From: Phycicoccus sp. Soil802
GTDB taxonomy: Bacteria; Actinomycetota; Actinomycetes; Actinomycetales; Dermatophilaceae
Direction of reading: 5' to 3'
Assembly (NCBI RefSeq): GCF_001429605.1
Contig: NZ_LMSS01000001.1
Span: forward strand, 1,415 to 65,414
DNA: 64,000 nt
Positions 67-22,258 of the stretch are shown here, piece after piece. The position numbers and the translations under genes are program-made. Within the stretch, counting starts at the first letter, position 1; every line of letters begins with the position of its first letter. The notes below the pieces were generated by a model. It worked only from the letters and a program-made list of their open reading frames with translations, made no database searches and was not told the DNA's origin.

Positions 67-2113
67 CATGCTGAGGGCCGACACGATCGAGTGGGCACGG
101 CGCGCCATGCGGCAGGCCGAGTACCTCGCTCCTCGGTACTCCGTGGTGGTTGCAAACCCGCCCTACATGGGAAGCGGAAGCATGTCTCCCGCCCTGGCGG
201 AGTTCGCGTTGGGCGAATACAGAAGGTCCAAGTCGGACCTGTTCGCCATGTTCATCGAGCGGTGCCTGGCCCTCGGCACAAGGGGCGCGCTAGTTGGAAT
301 GATCACGATGCAGTCGTGGCTCTTCATTGCCAGCTACGAGACACTTAGGAGGTCGATCCTTGAGAGCCGACGAGTCGTTAGTTTGCTCCAGCTCGGAACC
401 GCCGCCTTCGACACCATCGGAGGGGCAGTCGTTTCGACCGCTGCGTTCGTGATCGAGAACGGAACCGGGACCAATCGGCGGTCGATCTTCCTTGATCTCA
501 CCGCCGGCCGGGACGAGAGGGCCAAGAGCGCTGCGTTCGCGAAGGCAATGCGGCAAGAGAACGCAGCGCATCGGCGCGAGTTGCCTGCTGAACGGTTTCT
601 GGACCTGCCGGGAGCACCATTCGCTCACGCCATCCAGAACTTCGAGGTATTCCACGGGCCTCGGGTCTCTGCGCGTTGGCGCTCCGGAGGACGGCTAAAG
701 ACGCACCACGGAACTCGGTTCATCAGGTACTGGTGGGAGGTATCGCGGGCTAGCGAACGATGGCGTCCACTGATCAAAGGTGGAGACTTCCGACCGTTTT
801 ACGGAAACCGCGACTTCGTGGTCGACTTTTCGAGGGACGCCGTTGACTTCTACCGCAGCCACGGCGGGTTGTACCCAGACGAGAATCGAGGTGTCGTCGG
901 TGTTTGCTGGACCAAGATCGGGAGGTTGAGCTTCCGTATCAAGAACGCGGACGAGGAGTTCGACTCGGCCTCACCCACGCTGCTTCCGGACAGTGAGGAC
1001 GATGTTCTGTCGCTCTTGGCCTACCTGAATTCCAGTGAAGTTCGCGCGCTCGTGGCGGTCCTCAACCCAACCATCAACACACAGGTTGCGAACGTTCTGG
1101 AGTTGCCTGAGCCAGTTTGGTCCGATTCTGAAAAGTCAGCCCTTACACGCCTTGGGGATCAGTTGGTGAAGATGGCGAAGAATGAGTGGGAGGCTCGCGA
1201 AACAGCGGACGAGTTCGTGGTTTGTCCGATTCTTGGCGGAGCTGATGGCAGTTCCATGCGGGATGCGACAGAGTTGCTCATCGCCGAGCGCACTGCCCGC
1301 GAGCGTCTGCAGTTGAAGGTTGCCGATGAGATCGACGCGATCGTCGGTCCGCTTCTCGCGACGGGACTCACGGGGCCGAATAGCTCGGACCTGGTCACGG
1401 AGCGACCGACGGTCGCCGAACTCATGACGGCTTTCATGTCCCTCGCCGTTGGCTGCATGTTTGGACGCTATAGCCTTAATGAGCCGGGTTTGATCCTCGC
1501 GGATCAGGGTGCGACGTTGCAGGACTACCTCGCGAAGGTGCCGTCGCCGAGCTTCCTGCCGGATGCGGACAACGTCATCCCGATAGTCGACGGGGACTGG
1601 TTCGAGGACGACATTGTGGAGCGGTTCCGTCAGTTCCTTCGGGCCGCGTTCGGCGAGGAGCACTTCGAGGAGAATCTGCGGTTCGTCACCGAGTCGCTGG
1701 GAGTGAAGAGCCTGCGGGACTACTTCGTGAAGTCCTTCTACAAGGATCACGTCCAGCGGTACAAGAAGCGTCCGATCTACTGGCTGTTCTCCAGCCCTAA
1801 CGGGTCGTTCAACGCCTTGATCTACATGCACCGGTACACGCCGTCGACTGTCTCAACGGTGCTTAATGAGTACCTTCGAGAGTTCCAGGGCAAGCTCAAG
1901 GCGAGCCTCGAGTATGCAGAACGTTCCAACAATGCCAAGGAAGCCGACCGCTTGCGCAAGGTGCTTGTTGAGCTGGGCGAGTACGAGCACGACGTGCTCT
2001 ACCCGCTGGCATCACAGAACCTCGCCATCGATCTCGACGACGGGGTAAAGATCAACTACCCCAAGTTCGGTGCCGCCCTGAAGAAGATCCCCGGCCTGGA
2101 GGCGACTGAATGA
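2..2113 (+). CDS. pglX: BREX adenine-specific DNA methyltransferase PglX, C-terminal part (5' end outside window)
   Basis: The frame is open at the left edge, so only about 703 residues are visible of a family usually near 1,200. PglX methylates adenine in a non-palindromic BREX site to mark self DNA, and BREX also needs it to block phage. The amino-methyltransferase motif NPPY lies near residue 30 counted from the ATG at 68 (VVVANPPYMGSG). Target-recognition-like sequence follows, then a helical C-terminus. The stop overlaps the brxL start (ATGA), so the two genes are translationally coupled. Oddity: codons 2-66 (GGTDEGAGFYRLATDLGALP) are not PglX sequence. They are identical to part of the gene at 28604-29002 in the opposite orientation, and PglX-like sequence starts only at about 67. 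The N-terminal half may be missing or replaced. The family call is firm; integrity is doubtful. Confidence 0.85.
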   Translation, partial: GGTDEGAGFYRLATDLGALPARMLRADTIEWARRAMRQAEYLAPRYSVVVANPPYMGSGSMSPALAEFALGEYRRSKSDLFAMFIERCLALGTRGALVGMITMQSWLFIASYETLRRSILESRRVVSLLQLGTAAFDTIGGAVVSTAAFVIENGTGTNRRSIFLDLTAGRDERAKSAAFAKAMRQENAAHRRELPAERFLDLPGAPFAHAIQNFEVFHGPRVSARWRSGGRLKTHHGTRFIRYWWEVSRASERWRPLIKGGDFRPFYGNRDFVVDFSRDAVDFYRSHGGLYPDENRGVVGVCWTKIGRLSFRIKNADEEFDSASPTLLPDSEDDVLSLLAYLNSSEVRALVAVLNPTINTQVANVLELPEPVWSDSEKSALTRLGDQLVKMAKNEWEARETADEFVVCPILGGADGSSMRDATELLIAERTARERLQLKVADEIDAIVGPLLATGLTGPNSSDLVTERPTVAELMTAFMSLAVGCMFGRYSLNEPGLILADQGATLQDYLAKVPSPSFLPDADNVIPIVDGDWFEDDIVERFRQFLRAAFGEEHFEENLRFVTESLGVKSLRDYFVKSFYKDHVQRYKKRPIYWLFSSPNGSFNALIYMHRYTPSTVSTVLNEYLREFQGKLKASLEYAERSNNAKEADRLRKVLVELGEYEHDVLYPLASQNLAIDLDDGVKINYPKFGAALKKIPGLEATE

Positions 2114-4248
2114 CTCAGATCCAGCGACCAAGCGGCGTCCCCGAGGGAGCCACGACCGAGGAGGCGAGCGACCAGAAGGCGGAACTGACCGCCCTGGACC
2201 AAAAGATCAACCGCCACTTCGCCGGCTTGGTCGTGCGTAAGGACCTCGTCAAGGCCGTCAAGGGCAACGCGATCGTGCCGTCATACGTGCTGGAGTACCT
2301 GCTCGGCCAGTACGCCGCTTCCGATGACGAGGCCACTATCCAGGCAGGCATAGCATCCGTTCGTCAGATCCTGGCTGACCACTACGTCCACCGAAACCAG
2401 TCCGAGCTGGTGAAGTCGACTATCCGTGAGCGCGGTCGCTACAAGATCATCGACAAAGTCACCGTCTCCCTCAACGACAAGGACGACCGGTACGAGGCTG
2501 AGTTCTCCAACCTGGGCATCAAGGGAGTGATCGTCGAGTCGGTCACCGTCAAGGCACACCCCAAGCTTCTGGTCGGCGGCGTGTGGTGCATCTGCGACAT
2601 CGACTACTTCCACTTCGACGACGCGCGCGTCACCCCGTGGCAGCTCGGTTCGCTCAAGCCGATCCAGCTCTCCCACTTCGACTTCGACAGCTACACCACC
2701 TCGCGCCGCGAGTTCACCACCGACGAGTGGATCGACCTGCTTATCCAATCGATCGGCTTCAACCCCGAGCTGTTCGGCCGCCGCGCCAAGCTCATCCAGC
2801 TCGTGCGTCTCATCCCATTCGTTGAGCGCAACTACAACCTGGTCGAGCTCGGCCCGAAGGGCACCGGCAAATCGCACATCTTCTCGGAGTTCTCACCGCA
2901 CGGCATGCTCATCTCCGGGGGAGAGGTGACCGTCCCCAAGCTATTCGTCAACAACTCCAATGGCCGCATCGGCCTGGTCGGGTACTGGGACGTTGTCGCC
3001 TTCGACGAGTTCGCCGGCAAGAAGAAGCGCACCGACAAGGCCCTCGTCGACATCATGAAGAACTACATGGCAAACAAGACGTTCTCCCGCGGGGTTGAGA
3101 CTCTCGGCGCCGAGGCGTCGATGGTCTTCGTGGGTAACACGTCCCACACCGTTCCCTACATGCTCAAGCACTCGGACCTCTTTGATGAGCTGCCCGAGAG
3201 CTACCACGACGCGGCGTACCTCGACCGCCTCCACCACTACATCCCAGGCTGGGAAGTCGACACGATCCGCGGCGAAATGTTCTCCGACGGCTACGGCTTC
3301 GTCGTCGACTACATCGCCGAAGTCCTCAAGTCGATGCGCAACACGGACTACTCCGACAGGTACCAGCAGCACTTCACCCTCGGGTCGGACATCTCCACCC
3401 GTGACCGCGACGGCATCCACAAGACCTTCTCCGGGCTGATGAAGATCCTGTACCCGCACGGAGAAGCGACCAAGGAGGAGATCGAGGAGATCCTGCGGTT
3501 CGCCGTTGAGGGCCGTAAGCGCGTCAAGGACCAGATCCTTCGCATCGACACCACGATGGCCGACGTTAAGTTCGGCTACCTGGACAAGTCCGGCGAGTGG
3601 CACGCCGTCACGACGCTCGAAGAAGACGAGTACCCGACGCACTACCGTCACACTCGTCGTAATGAGGCTGATCTCGACGACTCGGGATCCGCCCAGTCGG
3701 AGGAAGCGGAGGGTACGCACCCGGCTGAAGAGCCCGCTACGCCCGAGCCCGAGAGGCTCTTCGAGGGCCACCGCGAGTATCAGGAGAATCAGCGGGGCGT
3801 CGGCTACGAAACGCTCCTGATCCCATACCTCCGCGGCGCAACCAACATCACGATCACCGACCCGTACATCCGCCAGTTCCACCAGGCCCGCAACCTCATG
3901 GAGCTGATCGCGAGCATCGCGTCCATGAAGGACGCCGCGGACGAGATCAACGTCAAGCTTGTGACCTCCGAGCACACCGAGAGTGAGGACAAGGTCCGCA
4001 AGCAACTTGAACTTCTGCTGAAGGTCAAGCAGGCCGCCTCTGCAGCCGGCATCCACCTGGACGTCTCGTTCGAGACCTCCATCCACGACCGGTCGATCGT
4101 CACCGACACTGGTTGGCGGATCAACCTGGGCCGCGGCCTGGACATCTTCCAGTACGTCACCGGTGACGCGTTTGACCTCGCCAACAGGCTTCAGGAGTTC
4201 CGCCAGGTCCGCGCCTTCGGGGTCACGTACATTCGCGAAGGTGCGTGA
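2110..4248 (+). CDS. brxL: BREX Lon-like AAA+ protein BrxL
   Basis: BrxL is a AAA+ ring protein that binds DNA and is required for phage restriction in BREX systems. The 712-residue protein has a BrxL-type N-terminal region, a Walker A motif (GPKGTGKS, near residue 248), a Walker B motif (VVAFDEF, near 295) and a sensor-type segment (VFVGNTSHTVPY). After an acidic, low-complexity linker (about 515-560) comes a C-terminal domain with YETLLIPYL, ITITDPYIR and IHDR (near 658). I read this as the phospholipase-D-like domain found at the C-terminus of MIT-domain proteins, not a Lon S16 protease; no Ser-Lys dyad was recognised. It starts inside the pglX stop codon. In the usual type 1 order pglZ lies between pglX and brxL; here the two are adjacent. 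Confidence 0.85.
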   Translation: MTQIQRPSGVPEGATTEEASDQKAELTALDQKINRHFAGLVVRKDLVKAVKGNAIVPSYVLEYLLGQYAASDDEATIQAGIASVRQILADHYVHRNQSELVKSTIRERGRYKIIDKVTVSLNDKDDRYEAEFSNLGIKGVIVESVTVKAHPKLLVGGVWCICDIDYFHFDDARVTPWQLGSLKPIQLSHFDFDSYTTSRREFTTDEWIDLLIQSIGFNPELFGRRAKLIQLVRLIPFVERNYNLVELGPKGTGKSHIFSEFSPHGMLISGGEVTVPKLFVNNSNGRIGLVGYWDVVAFDEFAGKKKRTDKALVDIMKNYMANKTFSRGVETLGAEASMVFVGNTSHTVPYMLKHSDLFDELPESYHDAAYLDRLHHYIPGWEVDTIRGEMFSDGYGFVVDYIAEVLKSMRNTDYSDRYQQHFTLGSDISTRDRDGIHKTFSGLMKILYPHGEATKEEIEEILRFAVEGRKRVKDQILRIDTTMADVKFGYLDKSGEWHAVTTLEEDEYPTHYRHTRRNEADLDDSGSAQSEEAEGTHPAEEPATPEPERLFEGHREYQENQRGVGYETLLIPYLRGATNITITDPYIRQFHQARNLMELIASIASMKDAADEINVKLVTSEHTESEDKVRKQLELLLKVKQAASAAGIHLDVSFETSIHDRSIVTDTGWRINLGRGLDIFQYVTGDAFDLANRLQEFRQVRAFGVTYIREGA

Positions 4249-5903: not shown

Positions 5904-6674
5904 TCAGCGCCTCTTGCGAGGGGTGAGGTCGGGCATGTGTTTGATCACGTCCCGGGTGAAGTCGACGTCGAAGGGCCGAGGGTCGCGCCCGGCGGCGGTC
6001 TCCTGGCGTTGGACGTAGAGGGCTGCCTGCAGAAAGCGGGCCCAGTTCTTGAGGCGCCCTTTGCACACCTGCTGGTCAATGAGGGTGATCAGGTCAGCGC
6101 CGGCCAGCAGGAAGATGGGGTGCAGGCTGCCCACGGCGGTGTGCAGGTCGGCCCCGCTGAGGTGCTTAACCTCGACGGTGGCGATGATCTCGCCACGTAG
6201 CCCCGCGCTGACGGTGACGGCGCGGATGGTCTCCGGTGGTCCGAGCAGCACCAGGGTCCAGGCGGCCTGGGGTCGGGCGTGCAGGTAGTGCAGCTGTTCG
6301 GCTCCTTGGCCGGTGAGCTGGTCGGCGCCGTCGATCACGAGGATCCGAGGCACGCCGGAGAGGGTGTCGATGAGCTCGTCTTGCATGTCGCGCAGCGCGA
6401 AGACGTCGTCCTCCTGGTGCACTGCCTCGTACATGAGGCGCACGAGATCTTTGGGACTGGCGGCCGGCGGAACGACGACCTGGTGCGCGGGCAGCTCCTG
6501 CTCCGAGAGCACGGTGGCGAGGGCGAACCGCTTCCCGGTGCCATGGTCGCCCGCGACGACCATGGCACCGTGAAAGGTGGTGGCGAACCGGAGCTGGTCG
6601 GCGATCTGCGTGAACACCGGGGTGCGGACCGGGTTGGCCTCGATCTCCAGTCCAGCCAGCATGTGAGGCTTCAC
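5904..6674 (-). CDS. AAA+ ATPase, TnsC/TniB/ExeA-like
   Basis: This 256-residue P-loop ATPase has a Walker A motif (AGDHGTGKR, residues 41-49) and a Walker B motif (ILVIDGADQL, 111-120). The order and size fit the TnsC/TniB/IstB-related regulators that sit on target DNA and activate a DDE transposase. Its start overlaps the transposase stop by 4 bases (ATGA), and the next gene begins two bases after its own stop, so the block is one operon. The usual Walker B DE pair is DG here, which may weaken hydrolysis. Confidence 0.8.
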   Translation of the reverse strand: MKPHMLAGLEIEANPVRTPVFTQIADQLRFATTFHGAMVVAGDHGTGKRFALATVLSEQELPAHQVVVPPAASPKDLVRLMYEAVHQEDDVFALRDMQDELIDTLSGVPRILVIDGADQLTGQGAEQLHYLHARPQAAWTLVLLGPPETIRAVTVSAGLRGEIIATVEVKHLSGADLHTAVGSLHPIFLLAGADLITLIDQQVCKGRLKNWARFLQAALYVQRQETAAGRDPRPFDVDFTRDVIKHMPDLTPRKRR

Positions 6675-8161
6675 CAGAGGGTGATCTGCCCGGTGGGGTC
6701 CTCAAGGGACTTGAACCGGTCCAGTGCCCGGTCAGCGTCCTGACGCAGATCGACCGGGGCGTCGAGCGCGACACGACTGGTGTGGCGCCCGTCCTTGACC
6801 TCGGTTAGCTCAAGAGCGCCGCGGTGCTCGTTGCGCATCCGGTGGGAGGTGCGGAATGCGTTGCGGGCGTCGTTCTCGGCCCGCCGCCTCGCCTTCATGA
6901 ACGCGACCTTGTCATCGGTCTGCAACTGGTGGGAGGGGTAACAGGTGGCGACGTGCAAGCCCTCGTGGAAGACCTCGATGAACTCGCGGGTGTGCGGCAG
7001 AAACCGTACTTCGACGGTGCGCCCGATGAGACCAGTGAGGGCATCGTTCGGGTCGACGTAGTCCCACTTGCCGAAGCGGACTCCCATCTTCCCGACCTTG
7101 TGACGGGCGCTGATGAGGAAGTCCTGCCACAGCTGTTCGGAGGCAATGGCGCGCAGCGGCGTGGTTCCCTGCTGCCATGCCTTCAGGGCGGTGCCGCCCA
7201 GGTTCCGGTTGACGTGTTCGGTGTTGTACCAGTCGATCCACTGCTTGAGCTGGTTGATCAGCTCGGCCTGCGGCAGCGCGTGGGAGGCGAACAGGTACTG
7301 GCCGCGGACGTCGACACCGGAGTCGATGTAGCCGGGCAGCGGTGCGATGGCGTTCTTCTTCAGGAACCGCCAGAACCGCTCGAGCGAGCCCTTCAGATGC
7401 GGGCTGTACGCGGGCAGCGCGATGGGGATCACGCCGACTCGGCTGCAGGACTCGGTGATCAGGTCGGACAGGAAGTCCAGGCCGCGGTCCCACATGGCCC
7501 GGTCGCACAGACCCCCGACCGGGGTCTGTCCGTCGGCGGCAGCACGGACGGTGAATGCGCACATCAACGCTGCGCGCACCTCCTCCGCGGTGGGGGTTCC
7601 GAAGGTGACCACCCACGCCAGCACATACCGGCTGCCCGCGTCCATGACGACGGTCATCCAGGGGCGGCTGGCCGTCCGGTACCCCTCGGGCACTACCCAG
7701 ATAGGCAGCTCGGTGTGGTCGAGCAGGTAGGTGGCGCCCCGCTCCTCGACCTCGCGCGGCAGGTGGACGCGAGCGTCGCGGCTGGCACGAGGACCAGCCT
7801 TGGCGACCGCGAGCGCGTGGGAGCTCATTGCGGCCAGGACACGGCGGCGGAAGGTGCTCAGGCTCGGAACGGTGTGGCCGCCCCGCTCGAGGAACCTGCG
7901 GGTGTCGGTGATGTTGCCGTTGTGGCGGAACATGGTCTCGATGACTGAATGGTCGACCTCGAACTCCTGCTGGTGGGCTCCGTCGCCGGAGGAGTCGACC
8001 TTGGCGACCTGGCGCTGCAGCTGACGCACGGAGTAGCCGGACTCGGCGGCGGCGATGGCGAAAGCGGTGCGGTCCAAGCGCCCATGGGCGTCGCGGTGGG
8101 CGAGCAGGTCCTTGACTGCGCGGTCGCGGGCGGGGCGGAGCATCTTGGGCTTGTTGGGCAT
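6671..8161 (-). CDS. DDE transposase, TnsB/TniA/Mu-type
   Basis: This 496-residue integrase-core protein has an N-terminal HTH-rich part (about 1-110) and an rve-type catalytic domain. Candidate triad residues are D148 (YLLDHTELP), D225 (MWDRGLDF) and E261 (KGSLERFWR), with 35 residues between the last two as in TnsB-like enzymes. A Mu-type C-terminal beta-barrel region follows (GRTVEVRFLPHTREFIEVF), typical of TnsB and MuA. It sits directly upstream of, and is coupled to, the AAA ATPase gene, the standard TnsB-TnsC arrangement. The two nuclease genes immediately upstream would be the TnsA-like strand-cleavage partners. Confidence 0.88.
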   Translation of the reverse strand: MPNKPKMLRPARDRAVKDLLAHRDAHGRLDRTAFAIAAAESGYSVRQLQRQVAKVDSSGDGAHQQEFEVDHSVIETMFRHNGNITDTRRFLERGGHTVPSLSTFRRRVLAAMSSHALAVAKAGPRASRDARVHLPREVEERGATYLLDHTELPIWVVPEGYRTASRPWMTVVMDAGSRYVLAWVVTFGTPTAEEVRAALMCAFTVRAAADGQTPVGGLCDRAMWDRGLDFLSDLITESCSRVGVIPIALPAYSPHLKGSLERFWRFLKKNAIAPLPGYIDSGVDVRGQYLFASHALPQAELINQLKQWIDWYNTEHVNRNLGGTALKAWQQGTTPLRAIASEQLWQDFLISARHKVGKMGVRFGKWDYVDPNDALTGLIGRTVEVRFLPHTREFIEVFHEGLHVATCYPSHQLQTDDKVAFMKARRRAENDARNAFRTSHRMRNEHRGALELTEVKDGRHTSRVALDAPVDLRQDADRALDRFKSLEDPTGQITLW

Positions 8162-8227
8162 GACTGATCAACTCTTTTGAAGGGGCGGGCTTGTCGACCG
8201 CTGCGCTGCTGCGTCTGGGGCCGTGAT

Positions 8228-8884
8228 CTATGGTGCGGCGCGCAGGTGCGTCTTCGCGTGGGTCGATCGACCGATTCCATGGCGGGCGGTGTGGGTAATT
8301 TGGGGGATGGGACGCCCAGGGCCGTACGGCGGCCGCTGATGGGCCGAGCCCCGTCGGTGGTCGGCGACGTCGAACAGGTGGCGGTACGGCGAGGACGGGC
8401 GGGCCAGGTACAGGGAACGTTCGGGGTGCTGCAGGCAGAGCAGGCGGAGGCCGGTGAGCCTGTTCCCGAACTGTCGTCGTCCGTCGGCGACGTAGGTGCG
8501 CCCCTGCTGCAGGTTGGCGGTGGTTTCGAAGAAGGCGGCTCGCCCGGTCTTGATCTCGTCGATCAGGAGTCGCCCGTGCGGGTCACGCCACAGCAGGTCG
8601 AGCCGGCCGCGTCCGAGGGCCACTTCCGCGCCGTGGAACTTCCAGGGCTCAGGGGGAAGGAGCCGGCCGAAGTAGGTGTTGACGGCGCCGGTGATGTTCT
8701 GGCGGTGTGCTCGACCCTCGTTGGGCTCCAGGTGCGGAAGCGCGCCCAGGATCTCCGCACGGATCAGGTCCATGGACGGGGTTCGCGTCCGGGCCGCGAT
8801 TCGGGCAATGACCCGGTGGGCGACCGCGCCCATCTCGTGATGGCGTGCCAGCGTCTCTTCGTTGATTGCGTCCATGACCGGCAC
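8228..8884 (-). CDS. PD-(D/E)XK nuclease, TnsA-like, copy 1
   Basis: This 218-residue protein starts with GTG (alternative ATG at 8875). The nuclease core reads GRGRLDLLWRDPHGRLLIDE followed by IKTG: D96 and E110-x-K112 make a PD-(D/E)XK signature. Upstream is the segment RAHRQNITGAVNTYFGRLLP, closely mirrored in the neighbouring gene (8957-9610), so the two are paralogues by tandem duplication. The C-terminal 50 residues are rich in Arg, His and Pro and may be disordered. In Tn7 a single TnsA of this fold cuts the 5' strands next to TnsB. The call rests on fold motif and position. Confidence 0.72.
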   Translation of the reverse strand: MPVMDAINEETLARHHEMGAVAHRVIARIAARTRTPSMDLIRAEILGALPHLEPNEGRAHRQNITGAVNTYFGRLLPPEPWKFHGAEVALGRGRLDLLWRDPHGRLLIDEIKTGRAAFFETTANLQQGRTYVADGRRQFGNRLTGLRLLCLQHPERSLYLARPSSPYRHLFDVADHRRGSAHQRPPYGPGRPIPQITHTARHGIGRSTHAKTHLRAAP

Positions 8885-8956: not shown

Positions 8957-9610
8957 TCAGGGTGTTGGGGGTCCGCGAGCCCCCGGCGTCCACGCACCAT
9001 CGCGGAGGGTCCAGGGGACGTGCGCCGGATGCCGGCGGTCGCGCAGGGGCTGACGGTAGAGACCTGGCGGCATCGGCCCGCGGCCGCCTGCGCTGTCAAG
9101 GAACCAGGACGCTTGGGGTGCTCGCGTGGAGAGCACGCGGATGCCTATGGCGGCGTCGCCGTGCGTCGACCGGATGGCGGCGAGCTGTCGGGCGGCCTGT
9201 TGGCGGGTGCGGGTGAGGTCGAGCGAGGTGTGGCCGGTCTTGATCTCGTCGGCGAGGAGGCGGCCGCTGCGATGACGCCACAAGACGTCGGGCCGGGTCC
9301 CGGAGACCAGTGGTTCGGATGCCAGCAGCGACCACTGGGGTGGGGGAAGGAGCTGGCGGAAGTACACGGTGACCGCTGAGGCGATGATCTGGCGGTGGGC
9401 CCGGCTCTCCACCAGGGGTGGGCACAGGAGCCGGTCTGCTTCCCAGAGTGCGCGACGCCAACCATTCGACCCGAGCATGGTCCCAACACCGTGCGGGTCG
9501 GCCAAGACGGCGGCGATGGCCATGTGCGCCAGTGCCCCGACCAAGGCTGGTCGGGCCAGGGTCTCGTCGGGCGGGGTGTCCCAGCCCGAAGGTTGCTGGT
9601 CTGCCTTCAC
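8957..9610 (-). CDS. PD-(D/E)XK nuclease, TnsA-like, copy 2
   Basis: This 217-residue protein starts with GTG at 9610. It shares the frame of copy 1: RAHRQIIASAVTVYFRQLLP, then TRPDVLWRHRSGRLLADEIK with D108 and E122-x-K124. The catalytic residues are intact in both copies, so both may be active. They could form a heterodimer or cut different strands. It lies 72 bases upstream of copy 1 in the same direction, and 12 bases downstream of a small unknown gene. A single nuclease is the rule for TnsABC operons, so the pair is unusual. Confidence 0.72.
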   Translation of the reverse strand: MKADQQPSGWDTPPDETLARPALVGALAHMAIAAVLADPHGVGTMLGSNGWRRALWEADRLLCPPLVESRAHRQIIASAVTVYFRQLLPPPQWSLLASEPLVSGTRPDVLWRHRSGRLLADEIKTGHTSLDLTRTRQQAARQLAAIRSTHGDAAIGIRVLSTRAPQASWFLDSAGGRGPMPPGLYRQPLRDRRHPAHVPWTLRDGAWTPGARGPPTP

Positions 9611-12680: not shown

Positions 12681-14450
12681 CTAGGTCCCCACGGGGTCGG
12701 CCTCGGCTCTGTGGGGGGTCGTGCCCTCGACGACGGGCAGGAGCGCCTGCGTGAGTAAACCGACGACGTCGTCCGCGGACATCTGATCGTTGACCTCACG
12801 AGCGACGGACAGCAGGTTTCGCAGCGCTCCCAGCGACCCAGGAATGTCCCCGGGGTCTGCCGGCAAGCCTGACAGTAGGGATTCGAGGACTGGCGCAGCA
12901 GCCACGTACTCCACGACCGCCTGCGCTGTTAGCGGCGCGACCACCGTTAGCAGGAGCGCGTGACAGCGCTGCGCCAGTTCGATTAGGGCGTCGGTCGCGG
13001 CGAGGTCCGTTGCCTCGGGGGCCGTGACCGACCCGTTCTTGTGGTCGACGTAGAAGGCTGCAAGCTTGGTCGCGTGGACCTGCGTGGCCCATGGAGTGAG
13101 TCGTGACGGGTCGACCTTGTCGAGGTCCTCGAGGAAGGCGTGGTGTAGGGACGCGAGCGTGATGAGCTTCTCGGCGTGATCGGACCAGGAGCTGTTCCCC
13201 CTGACTGGGAGTGCGGCACCGATGTTCAGGCTGTCTATGCAGGGGTACACCTTGGCGAGCTCCTCGCAGGCCAGAGCGGCCAGGGCGTACGCACGGGGGG
13301 ACCCGCCGTTGCTCCGCAGGAGCTGGGCCTCGCCAATCAAGTGTCCTGCGTTCTCGACCAGAGCTCGAGCCAATTGCGCCGCCACCTGGGCGCGCGCCAG
13401 ATGCTCCTCGGGAGTCGGCGCCGAGTCCCCGGAGCCCACGAAGTGGGTGCCGTCGCGGCGACTCATTGCTGGTTCAGGAATTGCTGCTTCGGCCACGGGA
13501 AGCGCGTATCTGTAGGCGTACTCCTCGCTGGTGATGCTGGGGTCGAGAAACCTGCTGGAGTCGACGGATACGAAGCGATCATGGTGGACCAGCAGCCTTG
13601 CCCACACCAGGTCAACGGTGGCGCCGATCTTCCGGGCACGACCGTGGACCGAACCTCGAAGCTCTGCGTTCTCGGCAGGGGAGACGTGGATGACGCGCAC
13701 GGTGTCGTAGAGGGTACTGGGGTCCCGCTCGAGCTCGTAGGCGAGGAGCTGTTGGCGCATCAGCTGGTAGAGCGGCTCCTGAAGAAGGTCCACGAAGGGC
13801 AGGAGGTGGCTGCGCACGGGACCGGCGGGATCGAGAAGCGATGCACCATACCGGGCGGCTCGCGTGCGGTCCTGATCCGGCTGCGGTCGGCGACGGCCAT
13901 AGGTTTCAGTGAACTTCCACTCGACCAGGGCGAGCTCTTGTTCCCCTGCCGGCGTGCGGTAGGTGAACGCCGCATCGACGCTGGTGCAGTGTGCACCTCG
14001 ACGGCGAGGACCCCGGGGCGACTCGTTGAAGTAGTCGGTGTCTCCGATGAACTCGAATGTGAGGAAGCGTTCAGGCTCGATCTCGAGGACCTCAGCAATG
14101 GGTAGCAGGTCCCCGAAGGCGAGGTGGACACGATTTGGGTCGTCGACCATCGAGGTCAGGGCGTTCACGCACTGGACCTGTGAGGACAGCAGGTGGTTGC
14201 TCGGTCCCTCGTCCACCCCCGCGTGCCAGGGGATCTGCAGCTGCGCGAAGAGCGCGAGTGCTTGCTCCCGCACGTTAGGCAGCAGGTTGTGCGCCGCGAA
14301 CGCCAAGGGCAGACAGAACGGCCGGTCCGCGCCCGACGCGGAGCCGTCCTTAATCACGTAGGGGGCATCGGCACGCGCCTGATCAGGGAGAGCCTTGGTG
14401 TGCGACTTCCACGACTTCGCGTGTTCGCGGTGCCGCTGAGCGAATCTCAT
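12681..14450 (-). CDS. PD-(D/E)XK nuclease fused to an AbiV-like HEPN domain
   Basis: This protein has 589 residues from the ATG at 14450; the frame open to 14549 overlaps the upstream gene. The N-terminal half resembles the PGN_0703 type of predicted restriction endonuclease: TSVDAAFTYR with D159 and ALVEWKFTETYG with E177-x-K179. The C-terminal part from about 355 to 480 reads like AbiV: LARALVENAGHLIGEAQLL, AYALAALACEELAKVYPC and AAFYVDHKNG. AbiV proteins are HEPN-type abortive-infection factors that block translation after phage infection. An attached DNA-nuclease-like sensor or effector would be a new arrangement to me. It lies 34 bases downstream of another PD-(D/E)XK gene in the same direction, probably one operon. 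Confidence 0.7.
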   Translation of the reverse strand: MRFAQRHREHAKSWKSHTKALPDQARADAPYVIKDGSASGADRPFCLPLAFAAHNLLPNVREQALALFAQLQIPWHAGVDEGPSNHLLSSQVQCVNALTSMVDDPNRVHLAFGDLLPIAEVLEIEPERFLTFEFIGDTDYFNESPRGPRRRGAHCTSVDAAFTYRTPAGEQELALVEWKFTETYGRRRPQPDQDRTRAARYGASLLDPAGPVRSHLLPFVDLLQEPLYQLMRQQLLAYELERDPSTLYDTVRVIHVSPAENAELRGSVHGRARKIGATVDLVWARLLVHHDRFVSVDSSRFLDPSITSEEYAYRYALPVAEAAIPEPAMSRRDGTHFVGSGDSAPTPEEHLARAQVAAQLARALVENAGHLIGEAQLLRSNGGSPRAYALAALACEELAKVYPCIDSLNIGAALPVRGNSSWSDHAEKLITLASLHHAFLEDLDKVDPSRLTPWATQVHATKLAAFYVDHKNGSVTAPEATDLAATDALIELAQRCHALLLTVVAPLTAQAVVEYVAAAPVLESLLSGLPADPGDIPGSLGALRNLLSVAREVNDQMSADDVVGLLTQALLPVVEGTTPHRAEADPVGT

Positions 14451-14484: not shown

Positions 14485-15450
14485 TCACAGTTGGTACGGG
14501 TCGAGGCGGCCCACCCTGTTGGCCTCGTACACGTCGACGTCCACGACAATCCCCTTAGCTGTCAGGTGGTCATGCACCTCCTTGAGACGGGCTCGGGCCG
14601 TCTGAGTCGCTCGACGGTCAAAGGCCAACACTGGGCGAACCGTCAGGGGGCTGCCGGCGCCGAACGTGGCACCGCCAAGGGTTAGCCCGAGGCTTCTGCG
14701 TTGCCGCAGCATGCCGTTGAGGACGTGCGAGGCGTGCGGCTGTTCTTCGGTCCAGGCGCGGAACAGGTTGGCGTAGTGCATGACCTGCACCAGTGCCCAA
14801 GGAAGGGTGCTGGCGTCGGCAGGCTTGATCTCGATGGCCAGGACCCGGCCGGCGGAGTCGATCGCCAGCGCGTCGCACTCACCGCCCAGTGAGGTGGGGT
14901 GAGACTTCCACCATGCTGGTGCTCCGTGGCGATCTAGGGCGGACAGCAGCGGGGCAGCGATGGCCTGCGTCTTTGTGTCTCGTTCACCGGAGGAGCCGAA
15001 CGTCACGGATGCCTCCCGGTCGATGATCACGCGATCGGGGGAGTCGAAACCGCAAATCGCGGACTGCACTGCTCCCTCCTTCAGATGCCTGTGGCCGACT
15101 GTCACGATCACGATTTCGAGGTAGTCCTCCACGTCGCCCCATCGCTGGGTCCACCATGCGTCGTCATGCCGCTTCTCCCACGTGGCGTGCCAGCCGTTCT
15201 GGTCGGTGCGGTAGGTGGAGTGCGCGCCCAGTCGGAAGCCCTTGGCGGGCAGGTAGTTCAGGTCCAGCACCTTCGTCAGGCCGACGTACAGCGTCGCCCA
15301 GTGCCCGTTCTTCCCGGCGTAGCCGCGAAGCTGTAGGTCCAGGGCGAACGCCCCGCTTCGTCCGTACTCCACGAGGGAGTGTGCGAAGCCGCCGGGTGCG
15401 AGGGCGTCGAGCAGGGCGTCGGGGACGCGTCGGTCATAGGCGATGGCCAT
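14485..15450 (-). CDS. PD-(D/E)XK nuclease-like protein, partner of the AbiV fusion
   Basis: It has 321 residues from the ATG at 15450, preceded by TGGAG with good spacing. The C-terminal half holds ECDALAIDSAGRVLAIEIKP with D193 and E207-x-K209, a PD-(D/E)XK core. The N-terminal 150 residues contain a conserved-looking DUF-type region (GKNGHWATLYVGLTKVLDLN). It is the first gene of a two-gene unit with 12681-14450. The divergent GmrSD-like gene begins 187 bases away, so promoters for both should lie in 15451-15637. Confidence 0.65.
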   Translation of the reverse strand: MAIAYDRRVPDALLDALAPGGFAHSLVEYGRSGAFALDLQLRGYAGKNGHWATLYVGLTKVLDLNYLPAKGFRLGAHSTYRTDQNGWHATWEKRHDDAWWTQRWGDVEDYLEIVIVTVGHRHLKEGAVQSAICGFDSPDRVIIDREASVTFGSSGERDTKTQAIAAPLLSALDRHGAPAWWKSHPTSLGGECDALAIDSAGRVLAIEIKPADASTLPWALVQVMHYANLFRAWTEEQPHASHVLNGMLRQRRSLGLTLGGATFGAGSPLTVRPVLAFDRRATQTARARLKEVHDHLTAKGIVVDVDVYEANRVGRLDPYQL

Positions 15451-15637
15451 GCTTGCTCCAGAGTCGTTGGGCGTTGAGCGAAGCTCACCGTGCCCAACAA
15501 CTGTCACTTTCGCACCTTTTCGACGGCAAAGGACCCGTTCGAACGAGGTCCTTACCCGCTCAGCCGCACCTACTCACGGCATTCGCTGCCATTTGTCTGG
15601 TTGGGTATTGGTGGTCACCAGCATTTTGAGGAGCGCG

Positions 15638-17836
15638 ATGAAGGCCACACCCTTGACGCCGGCCGAGATCTTCGGCAATCAGATCCGGTACGTGATCCCC
15701 CTCTTTCAGCGCCCCTATGTCTGGAACGAGAAGGACCAGTGGGCGCCGCTGTGGGAAGACGTTGTAGAAGTCGCGGAGACGGTGCTGGTCACCCCGCCTC
15801 CTGCCTTCGGTCCGCGTGCCGTCCCGCCGCACTTCCTCGGTGCAGTGGTCGTGGAGCAACAGCATGTCGCTGTCGACTACATCAGCGTGCGCGGGGTCGT
15901 TGACGGCCAACAGAGAATGACCACGCTGCAGCTGCTGATGGACGCCGCGCAGATGGTGGTAGCGCAACATGGGGACGCCAAGGATGCGCAGGCTCTGGAC
16001 GTGCTTGTCCTCAACCCTGCTCAGCTGTCATCGAACAAGGACGAGAGATTCAAGGTCTGGCCCACCGACAGGGACCAGGAGGCGTTCCGTGCGGCTATGG
16101 ATGACTCCATGCCCGTGCCAGTCGCGTTGGAGAAATCGAACATCGTCCAGGCTCACCGCTTTTTCGCCGCGCAGATCAAAGAGTGGGCAGAGGAGCCAGC
16201 CGATGCCGCCAAGACCGGCGCCAGGCTCAACGCCCTGACGGTGGCGCTGCGCGACTTTCTGAAGATCGTGGTCATCGACCTGGAACCCGGCGATAACGCA
16301 CAGGTCATCTTCGAAACGCTCAACCACCGTGGCACGCCCCTGTTGGCGGCTGACTTGATCAAGAACCTGGTCTTTCAGTCGGCCCAGGCTCAGGGTTTGG
16401 ATATCCGCGCGCTGTATTCGCAGCACTGGGCGCCCTTGGACACTGACTACTGGCGCGAACACATCTCTCAGGGCCGTCTGTACCGGCCTCGCATCGACGT
16501 GTTCATGAACTACTGGCTGACCATGAAGTTGCTGCGTGACGTTGCCACCGACCGGGTTTTCCTTGAGTTCCGTGACTACCTGCGGCTGTCGACTACCCCC
16601 GATCTGGGGGACGTGCTGGCCGAGCTGGCGCGGGACGCTGAGACCTTCAGGCAGATCGAGCACGCGTCACCTTCCAGCACTGTGGGGATCTTCCAGTACC
16701 GGGTCTTGAGGGCTCTGGACTCGGGAGCGGTCACGCCGTTTCTGTTGTGGATCATGTCTCGGCCCGCGCAGGACTGTCCGACCGAGCAACGCGACAAGGC
16801 CCTTCGGGCGATCGAATCCTGGTTGGCCAGGAGAGCCTTGTGCAGATTCACTGCCAAAGGGGTCAACCTGCTTGTCGTCGATCTCCTGAAGGTCGTGGAC
16901 GGAGCCGACTCAGCAGTCGTGGGTGATGTGACGGAGTCCTTCCTGCGCCGGCAAGAGGCCGATGCCCGGCTCTGGCCGAGCGACGCCCAACTCGTGACCG
17001 CCCTCACCGGCACCTCCGTCTACAAGAACCTCAGCCGTGCCCGCGTCCGGATGCTCCTCGAAGCCATCGAGGACGACATTCGCTTGAGCACTACCAAGAC
17101 GGAGGACACCCTGTGCCCCAAGGGGCTCACCGTTGAACACGTGATGCCGCAGGCGTGGGAGAAGCACTGGTCACTGCCTAACGACGACGACCCGCTTGCG
17201 ACGGATCGGCGGAACGCCGCTGTCCAGACGTTGGGGAACCTCACGTTGGTCACGCAGTCACTCAACCCCGCGATGAGCAACGGCCCGTGGGCCGACACTG
17301 ACGCCCAGGCGGCTGGACTCAAGGAAGGGAAGAAGAGCGCGCTGCTGCACTCCGTACTGAGGCTGAATGGAGACCTGAGCAAGTACGCCGCGTGGACCGA
17401 GGAGGCAATCGCTGCCCGTGGCCTCGAACTCGCAACGCGAGCCACCAGGATCTGGCCACGCCCCGTCGAGCCGGTCTCCGGGGACGAGGGGGCGCCCCAG
17501 GCGCACACCGAAACGGCGTCCGACCCCGCCGTCGAGGACCCGAGCGACACCTCCGACCACGAAGCAGGCGTGGCCCGTGCAGAACGAGCCTCGCACAGCG
17601 GAAAGTACGCCGACCTGTACCGCTGGCTACGCGGACAGGACGCCGACGAGGTCCGCTCCACCTTCGGCCAGGTCGAGGAGGTGATCGGGTTTCCGCTGCC
17701 TGAGTCGTGCCGGACCCACATGGCCCACTGGTACGGATACGACGGCTCCGCGGTCGCCCGGGCCATCGCAGACGCCGGATGGAGGGCCAGCGCGGTCAAC
17801 CTCGCCGCGGAGAGCGTGACCTTCGTCCGCATTTAG
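15638..17836 (+). CDS. GmrSD-type DUF262/DUF1524 restriction protein with C-terminal DUF7662-like domain
   Basis: It has 732 residues; the ATG at 15638 follows GAGGAG. The N-terminal DUF262 (ParB/Srx-like NTPase) region has IPLFQRPYVWNEK and the signature VVDGQQRMTTLQLL (near residue 89). The DUF1524 HNH nuclease motif TVEHVMPQAW lies near residue 498, followed by NLTLVTQSLNPAMSN. GmrSD enzymes cut DNA with glucosylated hydroxymethylcytosine in an NTP-dependent way; sequence cannot tell whether this one shares that specificity. An additional C-terminal domain (about 655-732: YADLYRWLRG, IGFPLPESCRTH, AVNLAAESVTF) resembles DUF7662 and may aid recognition. The next two restriction-like genes follow on the same strand. 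Confidence 0.82.
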   Translation: MKATPLTPAEIFGNQIRYVIPLFQRPYVWNEKDQWAPLWEDVVEVAETVLVTPPPAFGPRAVPPHFLGAVVVEQQHVAVDYISVRGVVDGQQRMTTLQLLMDAAQMVVAQHGDAKDAQALDVLVLNPAQLSSNKDERFKVWPTDRDQEAFRAAMDDSMPVPVALEKSNIVQAHRFFAAQIKEWAEEPADAAKTGARLNALTVALRDFLKIVVIDLEPGDNAQVIFETLNHRGTPLLAADLIKNLVFQSAQAQGLDIRALYSQHWAPLDTDYWREHISQGRLYRPRIDVFMNYWLTMKLLRDVATDRVFLEFRDYLRLSTTPDLGDVLAELARDAETFRQIEHASPSSTVGIFQYRVLRALDSGAVTPFLLWIMSRPAQDCPTEQRDKALRAIESWLARRALCRFTAKGVNLLVVDLLKVVDGADSAVVGDVTESFLRRQEADARLWPSDAQLVTALTGTSVYKNLSRARVRMLLEAIEDDIRLSTTKTEDTLCPKGLTVEHVMPQAWEKHWSLPNDDDPLATDRRNAAVQTLGNLTLVTQSLNPAMSNGPWADTDAQAAGLKEGKKSALLHSVLRLNGDLSKYAAWTEEAIAARGLELATRATRIWPRPVEPVSGDEGAPQAHTETASDPAVEDPSDTSDHEAGVARAERASHSGKYADLYRWLRGQDADEVRSTFGQVEEVIGFPLPESCRTHMAHWYGYDGSAVARAIADAGWRASAVNLAAESVTFVRI

Positions 17837-17960
17837 TTTGCCGCCACGAGTCTTCTTCTCGCTCCGGGCTTACCTCACGCCGTGCTTGCATGGGCTCCGC
17901 AGCTGACACCTCGTGGCTCCCGTTCGGTCCACAGCCATGCTCACATGAAGGGAATCGCAA

Positions 17961-18839
17961 ATGTCGTACTGGGTGTTCCAATGTGCTTTGGGTGAGGAGT
18001 ACGACCTCGACGAGATCCAGTCCTGGTCCGCACCGGACCTGTGGAGGTGGTCCCTGGCGCGGCACTTCAAGGATGTCCAGCCAGGGGATCGGTTCGCGTT
18101 CTGGGTTTCCGGCCCGCAGGGAGGGGTGTTCGCGTTGGGGACGGTGACCTCGCTTCCCTACACCGATGACCACTGGCGGGTGACCGCCAAGTCGGCCAAG
18201 GCGACATACGCGAAGCTCAGCGTTGACGTCCCCTTGTTCGATCGGCCGATCCCGCGGGAAGTCCTCAAGCAGGAACAGCGATTCAAGAACTCCCTCATCC
18301 TCAGGATGCCCGGGGGTGCGAACCCCTTTCGCCTGAACGACGATGAGTGGTGGGCCCTTGAGGAGCTGGCCGGCCTGGGTCACGGTCAAGGGAGCTCGGC
18401 CGGAGCAGCGGATGCCGGCACGCTGCCATTGCCGCCCGCCAGTTCCCCCACGACGATGACGACCGAGTCCGCCGAGCGGGTCATGCGGTTCCTGGAGGCC
18501 GCGCTGGTGAGGGAGTACGAGGAGTACCTGGGACGGACACTGGTCCGCAAGAAGTACCGCGTGAAAGCAACGGGGGAGACGCTGATCTGTGACGCCTTCG
18601 ACCGGGAGCAGTCCGAGCTCCTGGAGGCAAAGTCGTCAGCAGGTCGGATGCACGTGCGGCTTGCGCTAGGCCAGCTCCTCGACTACCGACGGCATCATCG
18701 GCCGACGCCCAGGCTGGGCGTCCTGCTGCCGCAGGAGCCGAACGGTGATCTTGTCGGTCTGCTCCTCGAATGCGACGTGTCGGTGATCTTTCGCGATGCC
18801 GAAGGCTTCAGCCGGTTCGAGCCAGCCGCGGCAGACTGA
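17961..18839 (+). CDS. EVE domain - PD-(D/E)XK fusion (modification-dependent nuclease)
   Basis: This 292-residue protein starts with an EVE domain (MSYWVFQC, then FKDVQPGDRFAFWVSGPQGG, ending around residue 150). EVE is a PUA-like fold that reads modified bases. After a Ser/Thr/Pro linker comes a helical segment and a nuclease-like core: ICDAFDREQ and LLEAKSSAGR (D near 210, E-x-K near 223), then VRLALGQLLDYRRH, typical of restriction-endonuclease-like folds. The combination fits a type IV, modification-dependent restriction enzyme. It begins 124 bases after the GmrSD-like gene. Confidence 0.75.
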   Translation: MSYWVFQCALGEEYDLDEIQSWSAPDLWRWSLARHFKDVQPGDRFAFWVSGPQGGVFALGTVTSLPYTDDHWRVTAKSAKATYAKLSVDVPLFDRPIPREVLKQEQRFKNSLILRMPGGANPFRLNDDEWWALEELAGLGHGQGSSAGAADAGTLPLPPASSPTTMTTESAERVMRFLEAALVREYEEYLGRTLVRKKYRVKATGETLICDAFDREQSELLEAKSSAGRMHVRLALGQLLDYRRHHRPTPRLGVLLPQEPNGDLVGLLLECDVSVIFRDAEGFSRFEPAAAD

Positions 18840-18958
18840 GGTCGCGTCACTCCGGGGCTCTGTGGGCGCCGATGCAAGGGAGTGGACCGGGTCAGCCGTT
18901 TGTCGAGGTTGTCCTCCGATTTGACCGAGTTGTCGCCGCGGGCTGGCATGATCCGGGC

Positions 18959-21900
18959 ATGCAACGCGTCGACGGCAGGCTGGTGCTGAGCCCCACGGAC
19001 CTGACCAAGCATGTCGCTTGCCCTCACATCACTACCCTTGACCGGGGGGCCCTGGGTCAAGGTGCGGCCGCGACCGGCGCGAGTGCGGCAGACGATGCCT
19101 TGAACCTGATCTTTGCCAAGGGCCTTACGCACGAGAGCGAGTACCTCGCACGGCTGCGTGACCGGGGTTTGAGAATCGTCGAGATCCAGGGTTTCGGCAC
19201 CGACCGGGTCACCGCGGAGGCTGCCACGCTTGATGCGATGCGCGACGGGGCCGACGTGATCTACCAGGCGACGTTGTTCGACGGAGAGTGGGTGGGCCAC
19301 GCGGACTTCCTGGTCCGCACGGATCGTCCGAGTGCGTTGGGCGACTGGTCGTATGACATCGCCGATACCAAGCTCGCCCGGCGGCTGAAGGTCCCGGCGC
19401 TGCTGCAGATGGCGACGTACGCCGTTCGACTCACCGAGCTGCAAGGCATAGCCCCGCGGCGCCTGGTGGTCGTGACCGGCGACAAGGTCGAACACCCGTG
19501 GCGTCTGGTCGACGTGGCTGCCTACGCGCGGCGCCGTCGCGAGGCGCTGGTCCACGCCATCGAGACACAGGCAGTGACCGAGTCCACGCCCAACGCTCAA
19601 TGCCCCCAGTGCCGCTGGCACCAGAAGTGTGAGCAGCAATGGCTCGACGCCGACGACCTCGTCCAGGTCGCGGGGCTCCGCACAGATCAACGGGCCGCGC
19701 TGCGCGCCAACGGAATCAGCACCATGGCCGCCCTCGCCGCCGCAACATCTGCGGACCTCGCAGGTGTGCTCAGCGTGGCGACCGGCGAGCGGCTGCATCA
19801 GCAGGCCCAGCTCCAGGTCGCCGAGCGCGACGGCCGGGGCCCCGCCTACGCGCTGCTGCCACCCGAACCGGGCCGCGGACTGCAGCGCCTGCCCGAGCCA
19901 AGCGCGGGCGACGTCTACCTCGACTTCGAAGGCGACCCCTGGGCCAACGACGGTCGAGGACGGGAGTACCTCGCCGGGCTGTGGGACCGGCAGCAGCACT
20001 TCACAGGGTTCTGGGCCCACCACGAGGCCGGTGAGAAGCAGCTCACCGAGGACCTGGTCGACGAGCTGATGCGACGCTGGGCCGCGGACCCGAACATGCA
20101 CGTCTACCACTACGCCACCTACGAGCGGACCGCCCTCGCGCGGCTCACCGGACGGCACGGCACGCGCGAGGCCGAGTTCGACCAGCTGCTGCGCGGTGAA
20201 CGGCTCGTCGACCTGTATGCCGTCGTGCGTCAAGGCATACGAATCAGCAAGCCGTCATACTCGATCAAGAAGGTTGAGGACTTCTACTGGGGGCAGACGC
20301 GCACCGGGACCGCGGACGAGGTGGCCGACGCCATGACCTCGGTCGTGGAGTACGAACGGTGGCTGGTCGAGCGCGACGACGACATCCTGGAAGCGATCCG
20401 CGCGTACAACGAGGAGGACGTCCGGTCGACCCACGATCTGCACGCCTGGCTCGAGCAGTGCCGCGCCGAGCTCGCCGACCTCGGCCACCACCTCACCAGA
20501 CCGGTCCCGGCCCTGCCACCAGAGGTCAGTGACGAGGATAAGGCCGAGACCGAATTGGCCCAACGACTGAGCCAGTACGGCCACGACCTCCTGGCTGGTT
20601 GCGTGGGCTGGCACCGCCGCGAGGCCAGACCGGGCTGGTGGGAGTACTTCCGTTACGAGAGCCTCGACACCGACGAACTCGTGGACGACAGCACCGCCAT
20701 CGGCCGTCCCGGCGCCCCGGACCACATCGGCGACATCCTGAGCAAGACGGGCCGGGTGACCTCCAAGGTCTGGCGGTACCCGTTCGAACCACAGGACTGC
20801 AAGATGCGCGTCGGCATGCGCGTCCACGACGTCGACACCCACGCCTCCGTTGGCAGCGTCGTCGGATACGACGGGGTCGAGGGCTGGATCGACCTGTCCA
20901 TGCGCGCCAAGTCGGAACCAGTCGCGCCGCGCGGATTCAAGCCACCCGGGCCGGTCCTGGACGGCGTGCTGCGAGAGTCGATCGCCGACACGGGCCGCTC
21001 GCTGCTGGACGGCCAGGAGGGCACGGCCGCAAAGCTTTTGGCACGTATCGTGCCGACGGCCGACGTGCTCGCCGTCGCGGTCGGAGAGACGCCCGCCCAA
21101 GCCGTGGTGCGGGTTGGTCTGTCCTTGGACGGTCAGGTGTTGGCGGTGCAGGGCCCGCCCGGCACGGGCAAGACGTACGCCGCGGCTCACCTGATCCGCG
21201 CCTTGCTTGACGCCGGGAAACGGGTCGGCGTCACCGCCCTGTCGCACTCGGTCATCAGGCACGTGCTCGACGAGGTCAAGCGCCCCTCCGTGCAGAAGAT
21301 CAGCGGCGAACCCCTCGCGGACCCAGCCGGCTTCGTCACGGAGCTGCCCTCCAACGACACCGTCATGGACGCCTTAGCCAATGGGGTCAACCTGGTCGGA
21401 GGGACCTCATGGTTGTGGGCCCGGGAGGACATGCGCTCGTCCGTGGATGTGCTGGTGATCGACGAGGCTGGCCAGTTCTCGCTGGCCAACGCGGTGGCCA
21501 CCGCACCGGCCGCCAGATCGCTTGTCCTGCTGGGGGACCCACAGCAGTTGACCCAACCCACTCAGGCGACACACCCGTTCGGGGCCGGCATCTCAGCGCT
21601 CGAGCACCTGATTGGCGACCATGACACCGTGCCTGCCGACCGCGGCATCTTCCTGGCCACGACCTGGAGGATGCACCCGGCGGTCACGTCCTTCGTCTCC
21701 GAGCTCGCCTACGACGACCGCCTCACCTCCGCGCCAGGCCGCGAACTGCAGAGCCTGTCAGGCGAAGGTCCCTTCTCCGGCTCGGGTCTGCGGTGGGTCC
21801 CCGTCCCGCACGAGGGCTGCCAGGCCGAAAGCGATGAGGAAGCTGCCGTCGTCGCGGGCATCGTCAAGGACCTCCTGACTCGCTCCTGGACCACTACTGA

Positions 21901-22258
21901 CGGAGCGAACAAGCCTCTGACGCCGGCCGACATCCTCGTAGTGGCGCCATTTAACGCCCAGGTCGCGAGACTCCGGCTCGTGCTTCCTGACGACGTCCTG
22001 GTAGGCACGGTCGACAAGATCCAAGGGCGTGGGGCGGCCGTGGCCATCTACTCGATGGCCAGCTCCAGCGCGGCCGATGCACCCCGCGGGGTCGACTTCC
22101 TCTTCGACCTGCACCGGCTGAACGTCGCCATCTCCCGGGCCAAGGCCATGAGCATCGTCGTTGCCAGTCCCGCCCTGCTCGACTCGCCGGTCCACACACC
22201 TGAGCAGCTCCGCGCAGTCAACGCACTCTGCCGCTACGCCGATGCTGCAGGCGGCTGA
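18959..22258 (+). CDS. TM0106-family RecB-like nuclease fused to SF1 helicase
   Basis: It has 1,099 residues from the ATG at 18959; the frame open to 18770 overlaps the EVE gene. The N-terminal part is Cas4/RecB-like: SPTDLTKHVACPHIT near residue 12, nuclease core, and a cysteine cluster CPQCRWHQKC near 215 that could hold an Fe-S cluster. An RNase-H-like exonuclease domain follows (VYLDFEGDPW near 319). A UvrD/Upf1-type SF1 helicase fills the C-terminus: GPPGTGKT near 732, VLVIDEAGQF near 830, LLGDPQQL near 858, KIQGRGA near 1,020 and NVAISRAK near 1,055. This architecture occurs in stand-alone defence-associated nucleases. It is the last of three same-strand restriction-like genes. Confidence 0.85.
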   Translation: MQRVDGRLVLSPTDLTKHVACPHITTLDRGALGQGAAATGASAADDALNLIFAKGLTHESEYLARLRDRGLRIVEIQGFGTDRVTAEAATLDAMRDGADVIYQATLFDGEWVGHADFLVRTDRPSALGDWSYDIADTKLARRLKVPALLQMATYAVRLTELQGIAPRRLVVVTGDKVEHPWRLVDVAAYARRRREALVHAIETQAVTESTPNAQCPQCRWHQKCEQQWLDADDLVQVAGLRTDQRAALRANGISTMAALAAATSADLAGVLSVATGERLHQQAQLQVAERDGRGPAYALLPPEPGRGLQRLPEPSAGDVYLDFEGDPWANDGRGREYLAGLWDRQQHFTGFWAHHEAGEKQLTEDLVDELMRRWAADPNMHVYHYATYERTALARLTGRHGTREAEFDQLLRGERLVDLYAVVRQGIRISKPSYSIKKVEDFYWGQTRTGTADEVADAMTSVVEYERWLVERDDDILEAIRAYNEEDVRSTHDLHAWLEQCRAELADLGHHLTRPVPALPPEVSDEDKAETELAQRLSQYGHDLLAGCVGWHRREARPGWWEYFRYESLDTDELVDDSTAIGRPGAPDHIGDILSKTGRVTSKVWRYPFEPQDCKMRVGMRVHDVDTHASVGSVVGYDGVEGWIDLSMRAKSEPVAPRGFKPPGPVLDGVLRESIADTGRSLLDGQEGTAAKLLARIVPTADVLAVAVGETPAQAVVRVGLSLDGQVLAVQGPPGTGKTYAAAHLIRALLDAGKRVGVTALSHSVIRHVLDEVKRPSVQKISGEPLADPAGFVTELPSNDTVMDALANGVNLVGGTSWLWAREDMRSSVDVLVIDEAGQFSLANAVATAPAARSLVLLGDPQQLTQPTQATHPFGAGISALEHLIGDHDTVPADRGIFLATTWRMHPAVTSFVSELAYDDRLTSAPGRELQSLSGEGPFSGSGLRWVPVPHEGCQAESDEEAAVVAGIVKDLLTRSWTTTDGANKPLTPADILVVAPFNAQVARLRLVLPDDVLVGTVDKIQGRGAAVAIYSMASSSAADAPRGVDFLFDLHRLNVAISRAKAMSIVVASPALLDSPVHTPEQLRAVNALCRYADAAGG

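Follow-up and report, generated by a model that had tools for sequence, protein, structure and literature searches.

A single uninterrupted reading frame of Phycicoccus sp. Soil802, located at 12681-14450 on the minus strand of the 64,000-nucleotide stretch of DNA analysed here (hereafter the window), joins a PD-(D/E)XK nuclease of the REase-ARP family to a HEPN protein of the abortive-infection family AbiV. Both parts are already known, and it is their combination that appears to be new. So far a single genome is known to contain the fusion, and among the copies of the nuclease that we examined AbiV is attached only here. Together with an adjacent nuclease-like gene, the fusion may constitute a defence weapon directed against both DNA and RNA.

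A whole AbiV protein at the end of a nuclease

The frame encodes 589 aa from an ATG at 14450; upstream of this codon it remains open as far as a TTG at 14549. The sequence-only reading had proposed a fusion of a nuclease with AbiV, and both halves are indeed matched by separate curated profiles far above their cut-offs. In the N-terminal half, the Pfam family REase-ARP (PF22558) covers residues 9-307 (13530-14426, minus strand) with 125.3 bits against a cut-off of 27 (E 4.3e-36) and is overlapped by PF20796 (PDDEXK_13) with 58.8 bits against a cut-off of 27. In the C-terminal half, where an AbiV or HEPN match had been expected at residues 355-480, PF18728 (HEPN_AbiV) covers residues 358-497 (12960-13379, minus strand) with 57.9 bits against a cut-off of 27.1 (E 1.8e-15) and the NCBIfam model TIGR04498 (AbiV_defense) covers residues 361-488 with 56.5 bits against 27 (E 3.8e-15); moreover, a profile of 12 AbiV proteins that did not include the window retrieves the frame at E 1.7e-23. 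Similarity to AbiV extends into the helical C-terminal tail (residues 498-589, 12684-12959, minus strand), given that a stand-alone AbiV of 228 aa (genome G485; loci L037/L041) shares 36% identity with residues 355-571 when the two are aligned. As judged from these alignments, the AbiV part of the chain is a whole AbiV protein that makes up its C-terminal 40%.

The linker between the two domains (residues 317-355, 13386-13502, minus strand) begins where homology to most nuclease-only relatives stops, near residue 316. Since the fusion is found in a single genome, and since the linker is rich in Pro, Ala and Ser (by eye) and contains an internal methionine, Met329, it could be argued that the fusion is accidental, i.e., that a stop codon between two defence genes was lost in this strain or through a sequencing error and that the two halves remain independent. 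Nevertheless, the linker looks coding because the GC content at the third codon position remains high through it (0.69, against values of 0.79, 0.82 and 0.78 for nuclease, AbiV and tail, respectively), no Shine-Dalgarno-like sequence is apparent by eye before Met329, and the genome assembly, in 9 contigs, has a completeness of 99.97%. These features favour a true fusion, albeit one seen in a single genome, and render an accidental origin unlikely.

Conserved residues and predicted structure

The alignment of the nuclease domain, in which the window contributes one of 24 rows, shows E133, D159, E177, W178 and K179 to be invariant in all of them, including the two residues (E177 and K179) that had been named from the sequence as belonging to the active site. 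Likewise, N367, L371, L378, E396, E397, K462 and Y467 of the AbiV half are invariant in 13/13 rows, the window included, and H425 is present in 12 of these 13 rows. As far as the account of AbiV in PMC3710099 goes, this family is without the histidine of the HEPN Rx4-6H motif, keeps a basic residue and has an alternative conserved histidine that is proposed as the active site; H425 stands at the position where that account places the alternative histidine, and K462 is the basic residue that is kept. The predicted catalytic residues of the nuclease (D159, E177, K179) and of the AbiV half are therefore intact.

An AlphaFold model of the AbiV half, of moderate confidence (pLDDT 67.4), is helical with a short hairpin directly after the YVD motif. 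When this model was submitted to Foldseek, the best six matches were solved AbiV chains, with probabilities of 0.91 to 1.00 and E values of at least 0.18; unrelated helical proteins came next, with comparable E values. The AbiV profile matched the Lactococcus lactis AbiV structures among PDB sequences at E 7.5e-8; as a lone query in the PDB sequence search, the AbiV half of the window did not find AbiV. The title of PDB entry 9bj6 presents L. lactis AbiV as "an RNase in a two-component antiphage system"; the codes 9bj5 and 9bj7 of the companion entries appear in none of the papers listed by a literature search.

Rarity of the fusion

Scans for the AbiV family returned matches in 9 of 396 genomes from the phylum of the window, 3 of 259 from that of Azohydromonas (one of them above the cut-off), 2 of 128 and 2 of 129 from the phyla of a Bacteroidales and a Clostridiales MAG, respectively, and none of 4 in a further small sample, for a combined 16 matches in about 913 distinct genomes. 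For fifteen of these the frame is 129-264 aa long; the shortest abuts a contig end, two contain a single internal stop and two score below the cut-off. This agrees with the earlier view that AbiV is normally a small separate protein; only the match in the window lies in a long frame (626 codons).

Searches with the whole protein gave matches in 6/396 genomes of the phylum and 5/394 of the class (the genome of the window being counted where sampled), in 1/58 genomes of relatives, this one being the genome of the window itself, in none of the 10 other genomes of the genus, and in 16/215 Nocardioides genomes, of which 15 matched the nuclease half and one the AbiV half. The search of genome contigs yielded 10 loci, that of 72,556 plasmid records a single match (none for the AbiV half), that of 50,697 phage records no match, and that of viral contigs no relative. 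All whole-protein matches other than the window stop by residue 347 or span AbiV alone. Furthermore, the AbiV profile found nothing at E≤1 in the flanks of 30 other loci with REase-ARP or its partner gene, the same profile retrieving, as positive controls, the window together with three loci of stand-alone AbiV, and tblastn gave no AbiV match in the partial locus L042. No other relative examined bears AbiV, as an accidental fusion would lead one to expect; on the other hand, the flanks do not offer an adjacent-gene ancestor from which such an accident could have started. Other C-terminal additions to REase-ARP do occur, namely one of about 115 aa (beginning PWGVSVW) in L039, L059 and L062 and a different one in L057. 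As a separate observation, the stand-alone AbiV nearest to the fused one (7929-8615, plus strand of L041) is divergent from a 403-aa gene (6395-7606, minus strand) with a V-L-E-C-K-G motif, which, without Pfam or PADLOC match, is by eye perhaps another nuclease.

Among the matches listed by a search of the open-access literature (titles and abstract openings; subscription papers and bioRxiv outside its scope), there was no AbiV fusion and no protein combining REase-ARP with AbiV. The proposal of an unreported architecture hence holds for the searched literature and the sampled genomes as regards the attachment of AbiV, but not for the nuclease, which belongs to the REase-ARP family. The name PGN_0703, to which the sequence-only reading had likened the nuclease core, occurs in none of the papers searched.

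A second nuclease-like gene as probable partner

The adjacent gene at 14485-15450 (minus strand) encodes a PD-(D/E)XK-like protein of 321 aa in which D193, E207 and K209, forming a D...E-x-K core motif, are invariant across an 11-row alignment, with no Pfam match above the cut-off and no significant PDB sequence match. A homologue of this gene is fused N-terminal to REase-ARP in 5/15 Nocardioides nuclease loci (one of them, L069, frame-broken), as illustrated by L002 and L003, where both make up one ORF of 664/665 aa, and lies adjacent upstream in 4/15; because of this recurrence, the partner gene and REase-ARP are probably partners. The association with another PD-(D/E)XK-like gene that had been suggested from the sequence is thereby supported, and the two-gene unit does recur in other genomes as far as the nuclease pair of Nocardioides is concerned, but there without AbiV. 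In the remaining 6/15 loci tblastn did not find a partner homologue; in two of these (L039 and L064) the nuclease is preceded by GmrSD-like genes, and in another (L063) by a protein without Pfam match that bears an E-x-K motif by eye. The Bacteroidota loci L004 and L006 have about 300 extra residues before REase-ARP, in which an E-x-K motif can again be seen by eye.

The model of the fused L002 chain (pLDDT 88.9, pTM 0.55) is confident for the domains and not for their mutual arrangement. By our own reading, the order of helices and strands in its partner part fits a PD-(D/E)XK core; Foldseek found no significant PDB match for this model. In a phylogenetic tree that left out L057, as well as L029, L004 and L006 (long branches), and whose root is uncertain, the four intact fused forms make up one clade (100/100) and the window falls outside it, in a poorly resolved part, so that an origin of the two-gene form by fission of a fused ancestor is not supported. 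Neither is the notion that the partner and REase-ARP are paralogues, for which profile comparison gave a probability of 1.4%.

The nuclease family and ADP-ribosylglycohydrolase

The Pfam family REase-ARP appears to correspond to the REase effector domain of Iyer et al. 2022, section 3.8 of which (PMC9503650) describes it as a new, rapidly evolving domain and predicts it to be a variable second-line effector of systems centred on ADP-ribosylglycohydrolase (ARG). This correspondence fits because an ARG homologue lies 0.1 to about 3.9 kb from REase-ARP in 7/15 Nocardioides loci; in the other 8/15 none was found within about 6-7 kb. According to the same section, these systems also comprise Nudix or WYL regulators, phosphatases, chaperones, Macro and ARPP components. 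Two Nocardioides loci, L063 and L064, also carry genes for an NrtR-type regulator and a Macro protein, and on a Pimelobacter plasmid the partner gene is clustered with ARG, a TM0106 nuclease and a DUF6569 gene; on a Phenylobacterium plasmid the nuclease stands between ORFs that by eye look like a restriction helicase and a methylase.

The surroundings in the window are different. The ARG, DUF6569, NrtR-type and Macro proteins of the relatives find no homologue in the window (tblastn), ARG (PF03747) has 0 matches in the whole source genome in a search where 5/14 controls were positive, and one DUF6569 protein has no match in this genome in a search run without positive control. At 43313-45514 (minus strand) of the window, a 733-aa protein contains a TY-Chap3 chaperone domain, which PMC9503650 names among the components of ARG-centred systems, although the genome gives no ARG match. 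As to whether homologues of the fusion had already been described, PADLOC has no match for the fusion protein, the partner or the fused relative L002, so that a defence system already listed there was rejected; nevertheless, by its family relationship to the apparent effector of ARG systems, the nuclease of the fusion appears to be of an already described kind and not a new one.

Neighbouring defence genes

The genes that surround the fusion include several others of defence type. The left edge of the window holds the C-terminal part of a PglX-like (or type IIG-like) methylase (68-2113) and BrxL (2110-4248), both of BREX; as the contig extends only about 1.4 kb to the left of the window, the remaining BREX genes probably lie beyond its end. 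Beside the defence genes, at 5904-8161 (minus strand), lie a TnsB/Mu-like transposase and an AAA ATPase (weakly TnsC-like), possibly a Tn7/Tn5053-type element, followed by two adjacent small proteins (8228-8884 and 8957-9610, minus strand) that share a D-E-I-K-T-G motif by eye, have no Pfam or PADLOC match, and are perhaps small PD-(D/E)XK nucleases travelling with the transposon. Farther along the plus strand are a type ISP restriction-modification enzyme (47735-50716) and a Schlafen group 3 helicase (53892-55760).

Divergent from the fusion, at 15443-22258 (plus strand), are a GmrSD type IV restriction gene with a C-terminal DUF7662, a gene for an EVE-domain protein and a TM0106 RecB-like nuclease-helicase. 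We have set these aside as parts of the unit, for they are not constant beside the pair: tblastn finds a homologue of the window's GmrSD only in L064. On the other hand, GmrSD-family genes adjoin REase-ARP in L039 and L064, and TM0106-type genes occur near REase-ARP or the partner in L063, L064 and L070, so that these genes may still be loosely linked to the unit. From the families involved and from the proximity of BREX and GmrSD, we infer that the fusion and its partner serve in defence.

Proposed mode of action

Our preferred interpretation, to which we would grant nearly even chances, is that the two proteins form a DNA nuclease complex that carries AbiV as a second, RNA-directed effector. 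The partner and the REase-ARP domain, whose pairing is supported by the fusion of their genes in relatives, would together recognise foreign DNA and cleave it as a complex, and the captured AbiV would be tethered to the same chain as the nuclease. Either the encounter of the nuclease part with phage DNA or the binding of a phage protein to the AbiV part would be the trigger, whereupon the HEPN RNase would cut RNA or halt translation and so shut down a cell whose attack on the DNA fails. The nuclease would thus be an effector detached from its ARG core, with AbiV possibly taking over the triggering role of ARG. In its most far-reaching form, this view depicts a self-contained effector with two DNA nucleases and a built-in AbiV RNase, a single complex that senses the phage and attacks DNA and RNA successively, and the first multidomain effector to contain AbiV, with AbiV replacing the ADP-ribose module as trigger; that all of this should hold is possible but rather doubtful.

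A passage of the review PMC3231927 relates that lactococcal AbiV binds the phage protein SaV strongly and is thought to block translation, a behaviour that supports the dual-effector reading and equally one in which AbiV is a sensor that, upon binding a phage protein, switches on the attached and the partner DNA nucleases. The varied C-terminal additions found on other copies of the nuclease resemble exchangeable sensor modules, and ARG, often encoded with the nuclease, is without match in this genome, both of which agree with a sensor; conversely, the presumed RNase residues of AbiV are kept, which would be unexpected for a pure binding module, and we thus regard a role limited to sensing as improbable. 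A surviving link to ADP-ribose, whereby the effector would be induced by, or act on, phage ADP-ribosylation with other genes in place of ARG, could draw on the ARG, DUF6569/ARPP-like, NrtR-type and Macro genes that accompany the nuclease or the partner in relatives and on the TY-Chap3 domain, yet it is very unlikely in view of a genome that lacks a match to ARG and to the DUF6569 protein searched and of a window in which the relatives' proteins find nothing.

If real and active, the fusion would physically tie an abortive-infection RNase to a DNA restriction effector and would make it testable whether AbiV is a sensor or a toxin. More generally, these observations suggest that this nuclease is able to function independently of the ADP-ribose counter-systems in which it has been described so far, and the partner-REase-ARP fusion in relatives would assign to the partner family the place of a second nuclease subunit in such systems.

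Comparison with known systems

The REase-ARP/ARG systems, as outlined in PMC9503650, have in common with the window the nuclease domain, its catalytic residues and the modular effector role, and those of Nocardioides also the partner protein; in contrast, the window is without ARG, DUF6569, NrtR-type or Macro genes and has AbiV at the C-terminus of the nuclease. The two-domain chains of Nocardioides (L002, L003, L067, L068) contain the same unit of partner nuclease and REase-ARP, fused there at the N-terminal side and without AbiV, whereas the window encodes the partner separately. A HEPN domain and a REase fold within one chain are also found in the DUF4145-REase and EC042_2821 fusions of Anantharaman et al. 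2013 (PMC3710099, Table 1), which involve other HEPN families, the architectures of AbiV being given in that table as "-". Lastly, lactococcal AbiV (TIGR04498/PF18728; PDB 9bj5, 9bj6, 9bj7) shares with the fusion the whole of the protein, including the E-E pair, the lysine, the tyrosine and the alternative histidine, but what is there a separate protein of 201 aa forms here the C-terminal 40% of a nuclease of 589 aa.
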